Positions 5,346-12,571 of a stretch of 64,000 nucleotides of DNA are shown piece by piece. Position 1 is the stretch's first letter, and the number at the start of each line of letters is the position of its first letter. The stretch is taken from contig NZ_SDPO01000002.1 of NCBI RefSeq assembly GCF_004134865.1, positions 558,001 through 622,000 on the forward strand, read 5' to 3'. The translations under genes and the position numbers were made by a program. The notes beneath the pieces are model-generated. The model worked only from the letters and a program-made list of their open reading frames with translations, did not search any database and was not told where the DNA came from. This DNA is from Agromyces fucosus (lineage in GTDB: Bacteria > Actinomycetota > Actinomycetes > Actinomycetales > Microbacteriaceae).

Positions 5346-6632
5346 GTGTCCAACGACCTCACCGTTCGCGTGCCGCTCCGCCTGCCGAGCGCGACCGCGA
5401 CCTTCACGATCGGCATCGCCGGCTACCTCGGCGTGAACCTCTCGCCCTACATGATCAGCGCGCTGCAACAGGCGATCGGCGCCGACGTGCTCACCGCGAG
5501 CTGGATCATCACCGCCACGCTGCTCGCCACCGCCGTCACGGGCCTCGCCATCGCGCCGCTCTGCGCCGGCCCGCGTCGCCTCGCCGTCGCCCGCGTCGGG
5601 CTCGCCCTGTCGGTGCTCGGCTTCGCCACCGCGGCGCTCGTGCCGATGCCCACGGCCGTCATCACCGGCCTCATCGTCGGCGGCATCGGCGCCGGCGGCG
5701 CGGTCGCCTCTGGCGGTGCCGCGATCGCCGCGTTCACGAACCCCGACCGCGTCGCGGGCTTCAACGGCCTCGCGAACCGCGCCGTCGTCACGGTGATCCT
5801 CGCGATCATCCCGCTGATCGGCCTCGCGCCGATCGACGTGTTCGGCGCGCTCGCGATCTTCTCGGTGATCGCTCTCGCCGTAAGCGGATGGCTCCCCGCC
5901 GCACCCGTCATCGCGCCGAAGTCGGCGGTCGCCGTCGCCGAGGCCGTGCCCGTCGAGGTGCCGCCGACGGCCGCAGTGCCGGCGCTCGAAGCAGCCGCCG
6001 CGACGTCGCGCTCTCTCCCCTCCCCGCGCGCCGTGCGCATCGCAGGTTTCACGCTGCTCGTCTCGTTCGCCCTGTGGGCCGTGAGCGAGGACTCGCTCTG
6101 GGCCATGGCCGGGGTCATGGGCGGCGCACAGGCATCGCTCACGCCCGAGGGTCTCGGCCTCGCGCTCAGCGGCGCGACCGCCGGTGGGCTCATCGGCTCG
6201 GTGCTGCTTATGATCGTCGGCAACCGCCTCGGCCGGGCAGTGCCCCTCGCCGTGCTGCTCGTCGGCGGCGGCATCCTCAAGATCGTCGAGGGCTTCGTGA
6301 CCGACCAGACCACCTTCATCGTGGTCTTCATCGCATGGAACACCCTCTACGCCCTCGCGTTCATGTACTTCGTCTCGACCTCGTCGGCCCTCGACGCCGA
6401 CGGCCGCTGGTCGGCACCGCTGCTCGCCGTGTACCTCGTCGGCTCAGCCCTCACCCCCGTCATCGGGGCCGCGCTCGTCGAGGCCTTCGGCTTCCAGGGC
6501 TTCGCCGTGGTGCTCGGCGTCGCGAGCTTCGTGCTCGCCGTGCCGGTGGCCGCCGTCGCCGCGTTCTCGACCCGGCGCGAGCGCGCCGAGGCATCCGCTG
6601 CCGCCGCCGAACTCCAGGAGGTCTCCGCATGA
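5346..6632 (+). CDS. MFS transporter
   Basis: A 428-residue polytopic membrane protein with about 12 hydrophobic segments, divided by a polar, Ala/Pro/Val-rich central loop (about residues 195-225). The first segments (FTIGIAGYLGVNLSPYMISAL, ITATLLATAVTGLAIAPL) and a glycine-rich GGIGAGGAVASGG stretch fit major facilitator exporters. The GTG at 5346 was chosen because a GGAGA lies about seven bases upstream and because the upstream extension of the frame crosses the promoter region. It overlaps the amidohydrolase gene by four bases (ATGA). The pairing with an amidohydrolase and a divergent TetR suggests uptake or export of a compound that the hydrolase acts on. The substrate is unknown. Confidence 0.85.
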   Translation: MSNDLTVRVPLRLPSATATFTIGIAGYLGVNLSPYMISALQQAIGADVLTASWIITATLLATAVTGLAIAPLCAGPRRLAVARVGLALSVLGFATAALVPMPTAVITGLIVGGIGAGGAVASGGAAIAAFTNPDRVAGFNGLANRAVVTVILAIIPLIGLAPIDVFGALAIFSVIALAVSGWLPAAPVIAPKSAVAVAEAVPVEVPPTAAVPALEAAAATSRSLPSPRAVRIAGFTLLVSFALWAVSEDSLWAMAGVMGGAQASLTPEGLGLALSGATAGGLIGSVLLMIVGNRLGRAVPLAVLLVGGGILKIVEGFVTDQTTFIVVFIAWNTLYALAFMYFVSTSSALDADGRWSAPLLAVYLVGSALTPVIGAALVEAFGFQGFAVVLGVASFVLAVPVAAVAAFSTRRERAEASAAAAELQEVSA

Positions 6633-8248
6633 CCCGCACGCTCGTCACCAATGCCCGTGTCTTCACGGCCGACCCGGCGAACGAGTGGGCCGAAGCACTC
6701 GTCGTCGATGACTCGACGCTCGCCTACGTCGGCGACGCGCAGGGTGCGCGGGCAGCTGCGGGCGCGGATGCCGCGACGCTCGACCTCGACGGCCGACTCG
6801 TGCTGCCCGGCTTCACCGACGCGCACACGCACCTCGTCATGATGGGCGAGGCGCTCGGTCGCGTCGGGCTCACGGATGCACGCTCGCTCGACGAGATCCA
6901 GGCACGACTCCGCGCCGCCCGCGAGGCCGCCCCCGATGCGCCGCGGCTGCTCGGTCGCGGCTGGCTGTTCGACTCCGTGCCGGGCGGCACCCCCGTCGCG
7001 GGGATGATCGACGCCGTCGTCGCCGACGTGCCGGTCTACCTCGACGCGAACGACTACCACTCCGTCTGGGTGAACTCGGCGGCGCTCGCCGAACTCTGCA
7101 TCACGCGCGACACCCCCGACCCGATCGGCGGCGCGATCGGGCGTGACGCCGACGGCGAGCCGAACGGCATGCTCTTCGAGACGGCCGCGCAGCAGTTCGT
7201 GTGGAGCCACCTCGCCTCCGTCACGAGCGACGCCGACCGCGACGCCGCGGTCGAGCGCACGATCGCCGCCTATCTCGCGACGGGCGTCACGGGCGTGGTC
7301 GACATGGCGTTCGACGAGCTCGGCCTCGCGGCCTTCCAGCGTGCAGCCGAGCGCCGGGGCGGCAGCCTCCCCATCCGCGTGGTCGGGCACTGGTTCGTCG
7401 CGAACACGGGCGATGACGCGGCGAACCTCGAGCAGGTGCGGCGTGCCTCCGAACTTGCCACGGAGGTCGACTCGCCCTGGCTCCGAGTCGCGGGCATCAA
7501 GCTCGTGCTCGACGGCGTCATCGATGCGTGCACGGCGGCCATGCGGCATCCGTACGCCGACGGCTCGAACGCCGACCCGATCTGGCCGCTCGACCGGCTG
7601 AAGCCGGTCGTCGCGGCGGCCGACGCGGCCGGCCTGCAGGTCGCGATGCACGCGATCGGCGACCTCGCGAGCGATCACGCACTCGACGCCCTCGAGCACG
7701 CGCACGAGGTCAACGGCGAGCGCGCCCGACGCCACCGCATCGAGCACCTCGAGTACGCGGCGCCGGGCACGGCCGAGCGGATGGCGCGGCTCGGCGTCAC
7801 CGCGTCGATGCAGCCCGTGCACGCCGACCCTGCGGTCTGGGCGAACTGGGCCGCGATGCTCGGCGACGAGCGCGCCGACCGCGGCTTCGCCTGGCCCGAG
7901 TACGTCGAGGCGGGCGCGCTGCTCGCGTTCTCGACCGACGCGCCGACAGCGCCCCACGAGGCACTGCCGAACATGTACGTCGCCGCGACCCGGCGCTCGG
8001 CGCTCGACCCGTCGTACGGAACGAACCAGCCCGAGTTCGCGCTGCCGCTCGCCGAGTCGATCGTCCATGCGACGCGGGATGCCGCGGCGTCCTGCGGCGA
8101 GGAGCACCTGCGCGGGAGTCTCGCCGCCGGGCTCGCCGCCGACTTCGTCGTGCTCGACACCGACGTGTTCACGGCGGGCGAGGAATCGCTGCTCAGCGCG
8201 AAGGTCGTGCGCACCGTGGTGGCGGGGGCCTCCGTCTACGGGTTGTGA
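6629..8248 (+). CDS. Amidohydrolase family 3 protein (YtcJ-like)
   Basis: A 539-residue metal-dependent hydrolase. Seen: an N-terminal beta-sandwich piece (TLVTNARVFTAD), the metal-binding DAHTHL (His66, His68), a central (beta/alpha)8 barrel with HRIEHLEY in the second half supplying a metal-ligand histidine, and FSTDAPTAPHEA as the late Asp motif. It closes with a returning beta-sandwich (AGLAADFVVLDTDVF). The family hydrolyses C-N bonds of amides or cyclic amides, but substrates of YtcJ-like members are largely unknown. The start overlaps the MFS stop, and a CAGGAGG sits eight bases before it. It is probably cytoplasmic and co-expressed with the transporter. Confidence 0.9.
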   Translation: MTRTLVTNARVFTADPANEWAEALVVDDSTLAYVGDAQGARAAAGADAATLDLDGRLVLPGFTDAHTHLVMMGEALGRVGLTDARSLDEIQARLRAAREAAPDAPRLLGRGWLFDSVPGGTPVAGMIDAVVADVPVYLDANDYHSVWVNSAALAELCITRDTPDPIGGAIGRDADGEPNGMLFETAAQQFVWSHLASVTSDADRDAAVERTIAAYLATGVTGVVDMAFDELGLAAFQRAAERRGGSLPIRVVGHWFVANTGDDAANLEQVRRASELATEVDSPWLRVAGIKLVLDGVIDACTAAMRHPYADGSNADPIWPLDRLKPVVAAADAAGLQVAMHAIGDLASDHALDALEHAHEVNGERARRHRIEHLEYAAPGTAERMARLGVTASMQPVHADPAVWANWAAMLGDERADRGFAWPEYVEAGALLAFSTDAPTAPHEALPNMYVAATRRSALDPSYGTNQPEFALPLAESIVHATRDAAASCGEEHLRGSLAAGLAADFVVLDTDVFTAGEESLLSAKVVRTVVAGASVYGL

Positions 8249-8258
8249 CGCCGGCGCA

Positions 8259-8348
8259 GCCTGCGTCGCCTGCGCCGCCTGCGCCGCCTGCGCCGCCTGC
8301 GCCGCCTGCGCCGCCTGCGCCGCGCGCGCCGCGCGCGCCGCGCGCGAT
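8259..8348. repeat. 9-bp tandem repeat array (10 units)
   Basis: Ten head-to-tail 9-base units start 11 bases after the amidohydrolase stop. Seven read GCCTGCGCC (the first has one change), followed by three variants reading GCGCGCGCC or close to it. The unit length is a multiple of three, so every frame stays open, but no start or binding site suggests translation. Such arrays change copy number by slippage. Confidence 0.85.
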
Positions 8349-8403
8349 CTATCGCACCCCCGACCCATCTGGAAAGCCGGGCTCAGCAGGCTCCCACCGG
8401 GCG

Positions 8404-8441
8404 CATGTGAGTTCCGCCTCATGTGAGGCAGAACTCACATG
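8404..8441 (-). terminator. Hairpin terminator after the 34-codon ORF
   Basis: Arms 8404-8421 and 8424-8441 pair over 18 positions with one exception and a 2-base spacer. In minus-strand RNA the exception becomes a G-U pair, while in plus-strand RNA it is a C-A mismatch. This points to function on minus-strand transcripts. It lies 33 bases beyond the stop of the small minus-strand ORF at 8475-8579. Confidence 0.65.
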
Positions 8442-8474
8442 AGGAATCCGGACGAATGCGGGAGCGGCTCTTCG

Positions 8475-8579
8475 CTATGCAGTTGCCTCATCTCGCGGGT
8501 CCGGCAGGTACGCCGTGATGTCGAGCGGCTGCGTGGGCGGCAGTTCGAGGTCGGCGGGGTGGATGAAGTCGTCGTTCAT
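8475..8579 (-). CDS. 34-residue peptide ORF, unknown
   Basis: A short ORF of 34 codons plus stop. It starts MNDDFIHPADLELPPTQP, has an acidic, proline-rich composition and ends PDPRDEATA. An AAGGGA lies eight bases before the ATG. It is flanked by a terminator hairpin for the upstream permease gene (8701-8734) and its own hairpin (8404-8441), so it looks like an independent small transcription unit. It contains no Cys, no hydrophobic segment and no recognised leader motif of ribosomally made peptides. It may be a small regulatory or accessory protein, a peptide precursor, or a chance ORF. Confidence 0.45.
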   Translation of the reverse strand: MNDDFIHPADLELPPTQPLDITAYLPDPRDEATA

Positions 8580-8700
8580 GTGTTCGTCCCTTCGGATGCA
8601 TGCCCTCACAGAAGACATGTCCGGCAACGGGTGATTCGTTGCAGTTCCGGCGCAAGAACGGTCGGAGTCTGTTTCGCAGCGCCGAGCAGCACGACGGAAC

Positions 8701-8734
8701 GAGGCCGCCCCCTGGTGTCGCAGGGGGCAGCCTC
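8701..8734 (-). terminator. Terminator downstream of the APC permease gene
   Basis: Arms GAGGCCGCCCCCTG and CAGGGGGCAGCCTC (8701-8714 and 8721-8734) pair at 13 of 14 positions. The exception is G-U in minus-strand RNA and C-A in plus-strand RNA, so it is matched to minus-strand transcription. It sits 20 bases after the permease stop codon. Confidence 0.75.
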
Positions 8735-8754
8735 GGCTGTACTGAACCTCGGGC

Positions 8755-10326
8755 TCAGTCCTCTGCGACCGCGCGCGAGAGCGTCTCGCCGCGGAAGAAG
8801 GCCGGGCGCTTGCGCCACTGCCACAGCATGATGACGACGCCCGAGAGCAGCACCACCATGCCGAGCACGAAGACGAGGCCGAGTCCGAAGACGTTCGAGC
8901 CGCTGCCGTAGGCCGGGTCCATGCTGTCGATCAGCGTCGTGAAGAACAGCACCGCGAGGATCACGCCGCCGATGAGCGGGAACAGCAGGGTGAAGAAGAC
9001 GTTCCGCACCGAGCGGAACCACACCGAGCGGAAGAACCACACGCACGCGAACGCCGTGATGCCGTAGTAGAAGCAGATCATCATGCCGAGGGCCGTGATC
9101 GTGTCCCACAGCACGTTCTCGCTCACGAAGCGCATGACCGCGTAGAAGACCGAGGCCACGATCGCCGACACGATCGTCGCGTACCCGGGCGTGAAGAAGC
9201 GGGGGCTGACCTTCGCGAACTTCTCGGGCAGCGCGCCGTAGTGACCCATCGCGAGCAGCGTGCGCGCGGGCGAGACGAACGTCGACTGCAGGCTCGACGC
9301 CGAGCTCGTGAGCACGGCGAGCGAGACGAGCACCGCGAGCGGTCCGAGGATCGGTCCGGCGAGGTGGAAGAAGACGTTGTCCTGGATGTCGGGATTGCCG
9401 AGGCCGTACTCCCCCGTGCCCACGCCCGCGAACGAGATGAGCGAGACCGCGATGAGCAGGTACAGGATCACGATCGTGACGACCGTGATGGTCGCCGCGC
9501 GGCCGGGCGTCTTCTCGGAACCGCGGGTCTCCTCGTTCATCGTGAGCGTGACGTCCCAGCCCCAGAAGATGAAGATCGAGAGAGACAGGCCCGCCGCGAA
9601 CGCCGAGAACGACTCGACGGCGAACGGGTTGAACCACGACAGCTCGATCGGCGTCGCGTCGAAGGCGTTGCCGTTCGCGACCTCGATGAGCGCTGCGACC
9701 GAGAAGACCACGAGCACGAGCACCTGGAAGCCCACGAGCCAGTACTGCAGCTTCTGCGTCGTCTGCATGTCGCGGTACGAGATCCAGGTCGCCCCGAGCA
9801 TGAACAGCAGGCACGTCACGACGTTCACGAACGGGTTCGCGGCGATGTCGGCGATCTCGGGATTGCCCGCGATCTGCGAGATCAGGAGGAACAGGAAGTC
9901 GACCGCGATGCCCGCGAGGTTCGACAGCACGAGGATCGTCGCGGCGACGAGCCCCCAGCCCGCGAGCCAGCCGACCCACGGCCCGAACGCGCGGGTCGCC
10001 CACGTGAACGAGGTGCCCGAGTCGGGCATGCGGCGGTTGAGCTCGCGGTAGCCGAAGGCGACGAGCAGCATCGGGATGAAGCCGACGAGGATGATCGCGG
10101 GCACCTGCACGCCGACCTCCGACACCGTCGGGCCGAGCGCAGCCGTCAGGGTGTACGCGGGGGCGATGCACGAGATGCCGATGACGATCGCGCCGATGAG
10201 GCCGACCGAGCCGGCCGAGAGGCCCTTCTTCGAGATGCCCCCCTCCTTGCCGTCGATCGCGGCGCTCGCCGTGGTCAGCGGCGCATGCGGCTCGGTGTGG
10301 TGCTGGACGGGTTCTTGCTGCGTCAT
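8755..10326 (-). CDS. APC-family amino acid/polyamine permease
   Basis: A 523-residue membrane protein with about 12-14 hydrophobic segments. It has a polar N-terminal tail of about 40 residues, then the first helix region (SVGLIGAIVIGISCIAPAYTLTAALGP), whose unwound GIxxxAP-type motif is typical of the APC superfamily. Later motifs fit too (WGWDVTLTMNEETRG, near residue 260). As the last gene behind putrescine oxidase and the stress protein, it is most likely a proton-coupled putrescine or GABA importer. The start was set at 10326, giving MTQQEPVQ. A minus-strand terminator follows. Confidence 0.9.
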   Translation of the reverse strand: MTQQEPVQHHTEPHAPLTTASAAIDGKEGGISKKGLSAGSVGLIGAIVIGISCIAPAYTLTAALGPTVSEVGVQVPAIILVGFIPMLLVAFGYRELNRRMPDSGTSFTWATRAFGPWVGWLAGWGLVAATILVLSNLAGIAVDFLFLLISQIAGNPEIADIAANPFVNVVTCLLFMLGATWISYRDMQTTQKLQYWLVGFQVLVLVVFSVAALIEVANGNAFDATPIELSWFNPFAVESFSAFAAGLSLSIFIFWGWDVTLTMNEETRGSEKTPGRAATITVVTIVILYLLIAVSLISFAGVGTGEYGLGNPDIQDNVFFHLAGPILGPLAVLVSLAVLTSSASSLQSTFVSPARTLLAMGHYGALPEKFAKVSPRFFTPGYATIVSAIVASVFYAVMRFVSENVLWDTITALGMMICFYYGITAFACVWFFRSVWFRSVRNVFFTLLFPLIGGVILAVLFFTTLIDSMDPAYGSGSNVFGLGLVFVLGMVVLLSGVVIMLWQWRKRPAFFRGETLSRAVAED

Positions 10327-10337
10327 TGCATGGTCCT

Positions 10338-11207
10338 TCAGGAGGTGGAGCGCGGCACGACGATCATCGGCACCGGCAGCTCGCGCAGCATCTTCGATGC
10401 CGTCGAGCCCAGGAAGAGGCGGCTGGAGGCCGCGAGGCGACTGGAACCGACGAGCACGACCTCGCCGGCGTGCCACTCGAGCGCCTTGACCGCCTGCTCG
10501 ATCGTGTCGCCGGTCGCGACGACCGCGGTGGCCGTCGTCCCGGCGGGCAGCGCACGTCGCGCCGCCTCGAGCACGTCGTCGGCGTGAGCGGTGCTCGCGA
10601 GGGACGCGAGCTCCTCGTCCATGCCGGCCGGGAGGTCGATCGAGACGAGCGACACGAGCCGCAGCGGCGCGTGCGTCAGGCGGGCGAGGCGCACCGAGAT
10701 GTCGAGCACCGACCCCGCTCCGGAGCGCGTGCCGACGGCACCGGTGATGCGGGTGACGCCGAGCGAGACGGGCACCTCGCGGGAACCCGCGGGAGCGAGC
10801 GCCACGGGCACGTCGGACGCGTGGAGCAGGTCGTTGGCCACCGAGCCGATGCGCGACCGGCCGAGCAGACCGCCGCGCGCGGCGCCGACGACGATGAGCG
10901 ACGCGTCGAACTCGTGCGCCGCCGCCACGAGGCCTTCGGCGAACGACTCGGCGTAGCGGATGTGCAGCGCCTGCTCGACACCGTCGCCCAGTCGAGCGGA
11001 TGCCTCGGCCAGCCAACCCCGCGAGCGCTCCTTCAGGTGGCGCTCGTATCCGGTGTCGGGCGGCACGACGGCGCCGCGCGCCTCGATGGGAAGCACCATC
11101 ACGACTTCGAGGAGCGCCTCACTGGCTGCCGCGAGTCGCCCGCCGAGGGCGAGCGCGTCGGCGCCGGATTCGTTCGCCGTGTAGCCGACGACGATGCGGG
11201 TGACCAT
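10338..11207 (-). CDS. Tandem-domain universal stress protein
   Basis: A 289-residue protein with two UspA domains (about 1-140 and 150-289). The first begins TRIVVGYTANESGADAL and ends with SLIVVGAARGGLLGRSRIGSVANDLLHASDVPVALAP, which carries the G-x2-G-x9-G(S/T)-like nucleotide-binding loop. The second ends VVLVGSSRLAASSRLFLGSTASKML...PMIVVP. Tandem UspA proteins usually bind ATP. It overlaps the putrescine oxidase stop by one base (TGATG) and precedes the permease, so it is part of the polyamine operon. A role in permease regulation or in coping with the oxidase's H2O2 is inference only. Confidence 0.9.
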   Translation of the reverse strand: MVTRIVVGYTANESGADALALGGRLAAASEALLEVVMVLPIEARGAVVPPDTGYERHLKERSRGWLAEASARLGDGVEQALHIRYAESFAEGLVAAAHEFDASLIVVGAARGGLLGRSRIGSVANDLLHASDVPVALAPAGSREVPVSLGVTRITGAVGTRSGAGSVLDISVRLARLTHAPLRLVSLVSIDLPAGMDEELASLASTAHADDVLEAARRALPAGTTATAVVATGDTIEQAVKALEWHAGEVVLVGSSRLAASSRLFLGSTASKMLRELPVPMIVVPRSTS

Positions 11208-12571
11208 CAGCTCGTGCCGAGGATCTCGTCGGCGACCTCGCGGCCGACGCGGATCGCGCCGTCGACGTGCTGGTAGCCCTTGCCCGCCATGTCGGAGCAC
11301 GAGAAGTGGATCGGTCCGACGGGGGCGCGGAGGTCCGCGCCGTACCGCGCGAGCCCGCCCATGTCGAAGCTCGCAGCGTACGCGCCGCGGGTCCACTCCT
11401 CGGAACCCCAGTCGCTCTCGTAGTAGACGACGGGGTTCAGGGCCTCGGGGCCGTAGTAGTGCGAGATCGACTCGAGGATGCGGGCCTTGCGCTCCTCGGC
11501 GGAGAGGCTGAAGACACCGTCGGCCTCCTCGTCGGAGACGAAGCCGACGAGGGTGCCGCGGGGGTCGTCGTGGTTGGTGTTGTCGTAGGCCTCGTGCACG
11601 AGCTCGTACGGGCTGAACGCGGTGCCCGAGAGGCCCTGCTCGCGCCAGAACGGCGTCTCGTACACCGCGTGCACCTTGATGACGAAGCCCATCGAGAGGT
11701 GCTGGTGCATCTGGTGCTGGCGACGGGGCAGCGGCGGCTCGTACGAGATGCGGCTGATCAGGATCGGCGGCAGCGCGAGCACGACGTGCTTCGCGTGCAC
11801 CTCGACGGAGTCGGTCACGACGACGACACCGGCGTCGGGGGCATCCGGCGTCCAGCGGATGGTGCGCACGGCCTGACCGGTGCGCACGGCGTCGCCGAGG
11901 CGCTCCGCGAGGAGCAGCGGCACCTGCTGGAGGCCGCCCACGACGCGCTTGTCGAGGATGAAGTCTGCGTCCACGAGGTTCGAGAACGAGCCGGCGGATG
12001 CCGCCATGAGCAGCGCCTGCAGCGCCGAGAACGCGTGGGCGGGCTTGGTGAGCATGGCACCGGCGATGAACATGCCGATGTTGAGCTTGGCCTCTTCGTC
12101 GTCGGTCTGGGTGCCGAGCCACTCGGCGAACGAGACCTCGTCGAGCTCCTTCGCGCGCGGGTGCGCCCACGGCGCGTCGGGGTCGATCTCGGCGACGAGC
12201 GCGTCGAGCTTCTCGATGAGGCCGACGATCTCGCCCTCGGTCTTGGCCGGCACCGGGAAGATGTCGCCCTCGAAGAGACGACGCTCGCCGTTCTCGGCGA
12301 TGTAGACGTTCTCGCCCTCGCGGTAGCGCTCGTACGTTGCGAGGCCGAGCTCTTCGAGGGTCTCGATGAGGGCGTCCTGGTCGGGCGAGACCCACTGGCC
12401 GCCGATCTCGAGCATGGCCCCGTCGATGTCGTCGGTCCAGAGGCGGCCGCCGATGCGGTCGCGCGCCTCGAGCACGACGACGGACTTGCCGGCGGCCCTC
12501 AGTTTGGTGGCGGCGGTGAGGCCCGAGGCCCCGGCGCCGACGATGACGACGTCGCAGTCGATGCGTTCCAT
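11207..12571 (-). CDS. puo: Flavin monoamine oxidase, probable putrescine oxidase
   Basis: A 454-residue FAD-dependent amine oxidase. It shows the dinucleotide-binding VVIVGAGASGLTAATKL (about 9-25), EARDRIGGRLWT (about 35-46), and a C-terminal FAD-contact region (DGAIRVGREVADEIL). It resembles actinobacterial putrescine oxidases (Kocuria/Rhodococcus Puo) in length and in lacking a signal peptide. The reaction is putrescine + O2 + H2O to 4-aminobutanal, NH3 and H2O2, in the cytoplasm. The neighbouring aldehyde dehydrogenase, GABA aminotransferase and permease genes support this substrate. A hairpin and a dispersed repeat separate it from the upstream aldehyde dehydrogenase gene, so its expression may be uncoupled in part. 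Confidence 0.88.
   Translation of the reverse strand: MERIDCDVVIVGAGASGLTAATKLRAAGKSVVVLEARDRIGGRLWTDDIDGAMLEIGGQWVSPDQDALIETLEELGLATYERYREGENVYIAENGERRLFEGDIFPVPAKTEGEIVGLIEKLDALVAEIDPDAPWAHPRAKELDEVSFAEWLGTQTDDEEAKLNIGMFIAGAMLTKPAHAFSALQALLMAASAGSFSNLVDADFILDKRVVGGLQQVPLLLAERLGDAVRTGQAVRTIRWTPDAPDAGVVVVTDSVEVHAKHVVLALPPILISRISYEPPLPRRQHQMHQHLSMGFVIKVHAVYETPFWREQGLSGTAFSPYELVHEAYDNTNHDDPRGTLVGFVSDEEADGVFSLSAEERKARILESISHYYGPEALNPVVYYESDWGSEEWTRGAYAASFDMGGLARYGADLRAPVGPIHFSCSDMAGKGYQHVDGAIRVGREVADEILGTS

Follow-up and report, generated by a model that had tools for sequence, protein, structure and literature searches.

In the 64,000-nt stretch of Agromyces fucosus DNA that we analyzed (the window), the 34-codon ORF at 8475–8579 is, judging by comparison with related genomes, a selected protein-coding gene that belongs to a lineage-specific family of micropeptides, which we will term the LPPT family. 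The most likely role of the peptide is in trans-acting regulation: it would be a cytoplasmic micropeptide, induced with its host operon, that docks via its conserved core on one conserved partner and adjusts that partner's activity. We give this reading, which is drawn from sequence comparisons, a probability of about one half.

A selected gene family of the Microbacteriaceae

With the 34 residues as the query, tblastn found matches in 25 of 398 Microbacteriaceae genomes at E ≤ 0.01. A 25-member profile extended this to 68 of 398 genomes at the same threshold, and a 77-member profile matched 67 of 398 genomes, from 28 of 85 genera, at E ≤ 0.001 (in the weakest of these matches, only about half of the core is covered). 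A scan of genomes that bear a name turned up 37 loci, with the genera Agromyces, Curtobacterium, Cryobacterium, Microbacterium, Leifsonia, Herbiconiux, Naasia, Glaciibacter, and Frigoribacterium represented; three of the records are named just to the level of Microbacteriaceae. In a search of 20 relatives that was extended to E = 5, there was a gap between 5.5 × 10−5 and 0.045. We found no credible member outside the Microbacteriaceae in samples of the order (347 genomes) and the class (394 genomes). All 10 matches in the order sample were from Microbacteriaceae, and the one match outside the family in the class sample (G783, E = 4.6 × 10−4) was judged to be a chance match because it lies within a long continuous frame that is, by eye, the exonuclease VII large subunit.

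The preliminary description of this DNA saw an acidic peptide of no recognized family, and database searches agree: three members had no match in Pfam, NCBIfam, or PHROGs at E ≤ 10, in scans where the HMMER filters lose most weak matches. A phage collection gave no match to the family, and a plasmid collection gave one Frondihabitans plasmid (E = 0.4). In the PDB profile search, the best match was to mitochondrial uL15m (PTQPIDLTQLVN, E = 0.23), which we regard as chance.

Conservation of the frame across the Microbacteriaceae and a bias toward synonymous changes had both been suggested as checks on the ORF. The frame is kept in other genera, which leaves the gene reading standing, and the bias is present (pS of 0.38 versus pN of 0.16, pooled over 32 related pairs that we picked ourselves and that share sequences, so that they are not independent). 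The bias is also seen within one genome: two copies from A. humatus (L083 and L084) have 10 synonymous differences and no non-synonymous ones. In three pairs, pN was near or above pS (L142/L159, L142/L144, and L106/L113). The gene is dispensable for the genus: about half or more of the same-genus genomes had no match at E ≤ 0.001 (5 of 10 in the family sample and 9 of 13 in an overlapping sample).

The peptide

The product of the ORF is MNDDFIHPADLELPPTQPLDITAYLPDPRDEATA, 34 amino acids and then a stop. We defined the family by the core P-x(4)-L-P-x-T-x-x-[ILV]-D-[ILVM] within an ORF of about 25–70 codons, and the window peptide contains this core (PADLELPPTQPLDI). The consensus core is I-D-P-A-x-[ILV]-x-L-P-P-T-x-P-[ILV]-D-[IL]-[TS]-x-[LWY]-[LIV]. 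In an alignment of 77 rows (some rows were dropped), Thr16 is present in 77 of 77, Leu13 and Pro14 in 76, and Pro8 and Asp20 in 74, and positions 19 and 21 (+3 and +5 from the threonine) are hydrophobic in all 77; these counts are flattered because the rows were gathered in part with a pattern that demands the threonine and a hydrophobic residue at +3.

For the 92 called starts, the median length of the full peptide is 39 residues, and in 83 of the 92 it is no more than 50. The net charge is negative in 93 of 99 rows, with a median of −4 (duplicates included). By eye, there is no signal peptide and no membrane stretch. The conserved part is central and the C-terminal tails vary. In an AlphaFold prediction made with 28 sequences, the chain is extended apart from three short turns (pLDDT 83, pTM 0.29); as modeled, the peptide would have no fold of its own. 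Agromyces copies in different neighborhoods have the tail AYLPDPxDE in common. Identity was 0.53 for copies from the same genus with different upstream families versus 0.28 for copies from different genera with the same upstream family, and none of 1000 label shuffles was as high; without Agromyces, the tail identities were 0.30 versus 0.28, so the genus signal was nearly gone.

The locus in the window

The peptide gene lies downstream of a universal-stress-protein/permease pair (Table 1). The ORF was originally said to have a good ribosome binding site, and it does; GAAGGGAC likewise precedes the orthologues in L081 and L082. The 24-nt block further upstream is less conserved in L082.

Table 1. 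Coordinates of the peptide gene and of the features around it in the window.
Feature	Position	Strand	Basis or remark
LPPT micropeptide family gene, 34 codons	8475..8579	-	translation and family conservation
Shine-Dalgarno GAAGGG	8588..8593	-	direct sequence reading; 8-nt spacer to ATG
24-nt block CGGACATGTCTTCTGTGAGGGCAT	8600..8623	-	same 24 nt in A. cerinus; putative promoter or operator
Hairpin 1, terminator-like stem of the permease/amidohydrolase junction	8701..8734	-	folding and compensatory changes
Hairpin 2, palindrome 3' of the peptide gene	8404..8441	-	folding; dispersed repeat
Amino acid permease (AA_permease_2)	8755..10326	-	stop 175 nt ahead of the peptide start
Universal stress protein gene	10338..11207	-	upstream of the permease, 11-nt gap
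Amidohydrolase (Amidohydro_3)	6629..8248	+	convergent to the peptide gene

On the other side of the universal stress protein gene from the permease, 11207–12571 encodes what is by eye an amine-oxidase-like FAD protein, and 10338–12571 together with the permease is possibly an operon for amine or amino acid use with a stress protein. Directly past the stop codon of the amidohydrolase is a GC-rich tandem repeat (8262–8346; GCGCCGCCT and then GCGCGCCGC units), which was not seen at the same junction in A. cerinus or Root81. Rfam at the gathering threshold found two tRNAs and nothing else in the whole window.

The gene had been portrayed as boxed in by two strand-specific terminators. As that account noted, each hairpin has one exception that is paired only in minus-strand RNA, where it is a U-G pair, and that is a mismatch in the plus strand. 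Hairpin 1 folds with −30.8 kcal/mol in minus-strand RNA (14 pairs, one of them U-G; z = −6.4) and −28.3 kcal/mol in plus-strand RNA (one mismatch). The corresponding values for hairpin 2 are −30.2 kcal/mol (17 pairs, one of them U-G; z = −9.4) and −26.2 kcal/mol (one mismatch). Thus, the preference for the minus strand is real but small (2.5–4 kcal/mol). No run of U follows either stem, and a scan of 8200–9000 for terminators with a consensus U-tract found none. There are minus-preferring hairpins on both sides, but they lack the U tract and are not a matched pair.

The two hairpins differ in kind. Hairpin 1 is a conserved stem of its junction, because changes on both sides keep the pairing (in the five distinct sequences compared, 3 of the 14 pairs have both-side changes, and 100% of cells are paired), and it is also found in relatives without the peptide at that junction. 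The palindrome of hairpin 2, around CTCACATGAGGC, occurs at five sites in the genome (at most 3 mismatches; 0 for the reversed control) and may be a REP-like element or an operator. (The copies of the palindrome, around GTGAGWTCTGCCTCACATGAGGCAGAWCTCAC, are at 8404–8441 and at C3:406024, C2:994349, C2:1014768, and C4:301263 of G000, L163–L169; in the window copy, an alternative stem of CCTCATGTGAG and CTCACATGAGG is also possible.) Hairpin 2 is shorter in A. cerinus, and no hairpin 2 follows the peptide gene in Agromyces sp. Root81. Across the family, matched hairpins on both sides are weak (z < −3 downstream at 14 of 91 loci and upstream at 6 of 91), so being boxed in is not a family trait. 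Since hairpin 1 belongs to the junction and hairpin 2 is a dispersed palindrome, the boxing is a property of the landing place.

Because the peptide gene lies 3' of hairpin 1, its expression requires either read-through or a promoter of its own. The separate transcription unit that was originally proposed is unproven: a scan for sigma-70 promoters found none in 8200–9000, and the usual place of the gene in relatives is at the end of an operon, but the 24-nt block is identical in A. cerinus. On sequence grounds, we consider this block (8600–8623) to be the best candidate for a putative promoter.

Family genes typically sit at the ends of diverse operons

We examined the context of 98 loci, after removing nine duplicates. 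(Neighboring genes were called by a codon-usage script, and single calls may be wrong.) The nearest upstream gene within 400 nt was co-oriented with the peptide gene at 76 of 85 loci (P = 2 × 10−14, two-sided binomial test, which ignores kinship), while the downstream genes were evenly split (42 co-oriented and 42 opposed). At 20 of the 76 co-oriented loci, the upstream gene overlaps the start of the peptide gene, by four bases in 10 cases and by one base in 5. An SD-like 4-mer precedes 71 of 92 called starts, although the choice of starts favored SDs. The peptide gene is typically the terminal gene of an operon. An operon host is not universal, as 9 of 85 upstream genes point the opposite way.

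The hosts are diverse: the upstream proteins fall into 32 clusters (for the 72 of 76 loci with a genus label), of which 13 have at least two members and 19 are singles. Pfam's sigma-70 region 2 was found in 6 first-upstream and 11 second-upstream proteins, the LuxR-type HTH in 5 and 1, and PadR in 8 second-upstream proteins. (We set aside the counts for sigma region 4 because LuxR-type regulators match it too.) At 32 of 76 loci, the first or second upstream gene encodes a sigma factor, response regulator, or PadR (23 + 9, with no overlap), as counted with profiles that were built from the neighbors themselves and that merge the sigma and LuxR-type kinds. The sigma/response-regulator profile had 1 match among 89 downstream neighbors. 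Other hosts include histidinol-phosphatase-like genes in Frigoribacterium, GlsB-like membrane proteins, MMPL transporters, and amino acid permeases. Several members in Microbacterium are, by eye, clustered with GAF sensor kinases, DevR-like regulators, flavodoxins, and universal stress proteins. These clusters may resemble dormancy regulons.

Copies and empty sites

Between Agromyces copies at different locations, the similarity begins about 16 nt upstream of the ATG and ends with the stop codon. For example, L083 and L084 share 127 nt at 90.6% identity, and there is no similarity beyond this at E = 0.001. A. humatus has at least three members, two of which are 1.5 kb apart. The arrangement in the window, with the peptide gene behind the permease, also occurs in A. 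cerinus and Agromyces sp. Root81 (in Root81, the amidohydrolase is matched by a fragment only). A. cerinus DSM 8595 carries two copies, L081 and L090, one of them at this locus. Among nine other genomes of the genus, the permease has a close copy in six (74–93% identity) and a distant one in three, and the core motif is absent from the 377–620 nt behind the close copies in all six. Two of the six, G393 and G142, have an empty site: opposite the permease stands the same amidohydrolase (68% and 80% identity), with the hairpin and a short spacer in between. Both genomes have the peptide gene elsewhere.

Among larger proteins with the motif, we found one case, an in-frame join to a partial DUF4279 (L030 in G285, at about 9.6–10.1 kb on the minus strand). 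There is no match to the first 32 of 116 positions of the DUF4279 profile, which looks as though the mini-gene had taken the place of the start of the protein.

On the Frondihabitans plasmid NZ_CP014514.1, two members flank genes for a pyridoxamine-phosphate oxidase and a universal stress protein (L201, 5929–7375). WP_157887864.1 and WP_157887866.1 are apparently these members, as their genes cover the coordinates of two profile matches; they adjoin pyridoxamine-phosphate-oxidase, universal-stress, and slipin genes and are annotated singly as hypothetical. A plasmid is a possible route for the spread of the family. ORFs of about 30 codons at the tails of operons are easily omitted or filed singly as hypothetical, and therefore the family and its pattern would stay hidden.

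A trans-acting regulatory peptide?

A target in trans is suggested because one core occurs behind many kinds of genes and because the Agromyces tails follow the genus rather than the neighbor. We propose that the peptide stays in the cytoplasm and is made whenever the host operon is switched on. For the window copy, expression would come either from transcription of the stress-protein/permease unit that reads through hairpin 1 or from a promoter of its own at 8580–8700. Two parts of the peptide, the extended LPPT-x-P-I-D loop and the short hydrophobic segment that follows, would then dock onto one conserved partner elsewhere in the cell, and the docking would adjust the partner's activity. Several observations weigh against this reading: the genus signal of the tails is nearly gone without Agromyces, the gene is dispensable for the genus, some pairs have pN near or above pS, the modeled peptide has no fold, and 9 of 85 upstream genes point the opposite way. 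A fuller version, which we offer tentatively and would not bet on, is that a nomadic micropeptide gene of about 30 codons, little more than a ribosome site plus ORF as it moves, joins the tails of stress, sigma-factor, and two-component operons that are unrelated to one another, across one bacterial family. Many stress inputs would then yield the same peptide, whose target would be a single conserved hub protein, possibly a kinase/FHA switch.

A second possibility is that the partner is local, so that the peptide binds the product of the adjoining upstream gene (a sigma factor, anti-sigma-like membrane protein, response regulator, or permease). The overlapping starts at 20 of 76 loci and the regulators that are common upstream and rare downstream are as this predicts. 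Nevertheless, it seems unlikely because one conserved core would need about 32 unrelated protein clusters as its targets and because the Agromyces tails track the genus instead of the neighbor.

Third, a PknB-like Ser/Thr kinase could phosphorylate the conserved threonine, after which the peptide could bind an FHA-domain protein as a stress-made decoy or switch. The pattern fits, with the threonine and hydrophobic residues at +3 and +5 in 77 of 77 rows (which were partly selected for the threonine and +3). Mycobacterial kinases are said to have a preference, reportedly described by Prisic et al. in 2010, that resembles threonine with hydrophobic residues at +3 and +5. TTSVF of Rv1827 is given as the preferred target sequence of PknB, and FHA proteins as binders of phosphothreonine (PMC6151718). 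However, this proposal does not explain the invariant L-P before the threonine or the proline eight residues earlier, and an excerpt of another paper cites Prisic et al. without stating the motif (PMC4393303). We consider it improbable as the main explanation, and a kinase/FHA partner for the peptide is a guess.

Fourth, the peptide could be the precursor of a secreted or modified peptide (a RiPP, signal, or bacteriocin) whose processing enzymes are encoded elsewhere. The precursor reading would suit a short product with a variable C-terminal tail and several copies in some genomes, but the conserved part is the middle and there is no Cys-rich or Ser/Thr-rich core. We rejected a RiPP precursor in particular because the expected neighborhood was not found: no modification enzyme is among the best 25 Pfam families of each set of neighbors (76 first-upstream, 51 second-upstream, and 89 downstream). 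Overall, we regard a precursor as very doubtful.

Equally doubtful is a mini-gene without a role in the cell, either selfish or neutral, that takes its ribosome site along as it spreads. It would account for the patchy presence, the roaming, and the empty sites, but not for the synonymous-biased divergence, even within one genome, or for the frequency of regulatory and stress operons as hosts.

Finally, the preliminary description allowed for a small RNA with an incidental ORF, which the flanking hairpins might suggest; this fails because the reading frame is conserved in other genera, with conservation at the protein level across 28 genera and unrelated contexts, and the 259 nt between the hairpins fold no better than shuffles (z = −0.31), so we give it almost no weight.

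We also rejected three more specific roles. For a cis-acting leader or arrest peptide, the downstream gene is co-oriented at just 42 of 84 loci, and the conservation is central, with variable tails. A type I toxin peptide would be hydrophobic and membrane-spanning, but this family is acidic and proline-rich (93 of 99 rows are negative). A sortase (LPXTG) substrate does not fit an acidic peptide of 34 amino acids without a hydrophobic stretch (by eye), from a family with a median charge of −4.

Comparison with known systems

LPXTG sortase substrates have the letters L-P-x-T in common with the peptide, but unlike them, the peptide has no signal peptide or membrane anchor (by eye), and its consensus has no glycine after the threonine. 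GarA/OdhI-type FHA regulators and kinases have a threonine with a hydrophobic residue at +3, as in the peptide. Unlike these regulators, the peptide has no FHA domain, and its phosphorylation is a prediction. The ECF sigma/anti-sigma-like and PadR-HAAS operons of actinobacteria are frequent hosts, with the peptide gene as their last ORF. However, the gene is no fixed part of either system, as it is also found behind permeases, phosphatases, MMPL transporters, and GlsB-like genes, among others.

Bacterial micropeptides are a known kind of gene product. A narrow search of the open-licence literature found no description of this family, and as far as our searches show, both the family and its habit of joining unrelated operons are undescribed. 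If the peptide is indeed a trans-acting regulator, then many stress and regulatory operons, though unrelated, would have one small peptide as their common output. To our knowledge, such wiring is not known from elsewhere. The conserved LPxT core gives a direct handle for finding the target.
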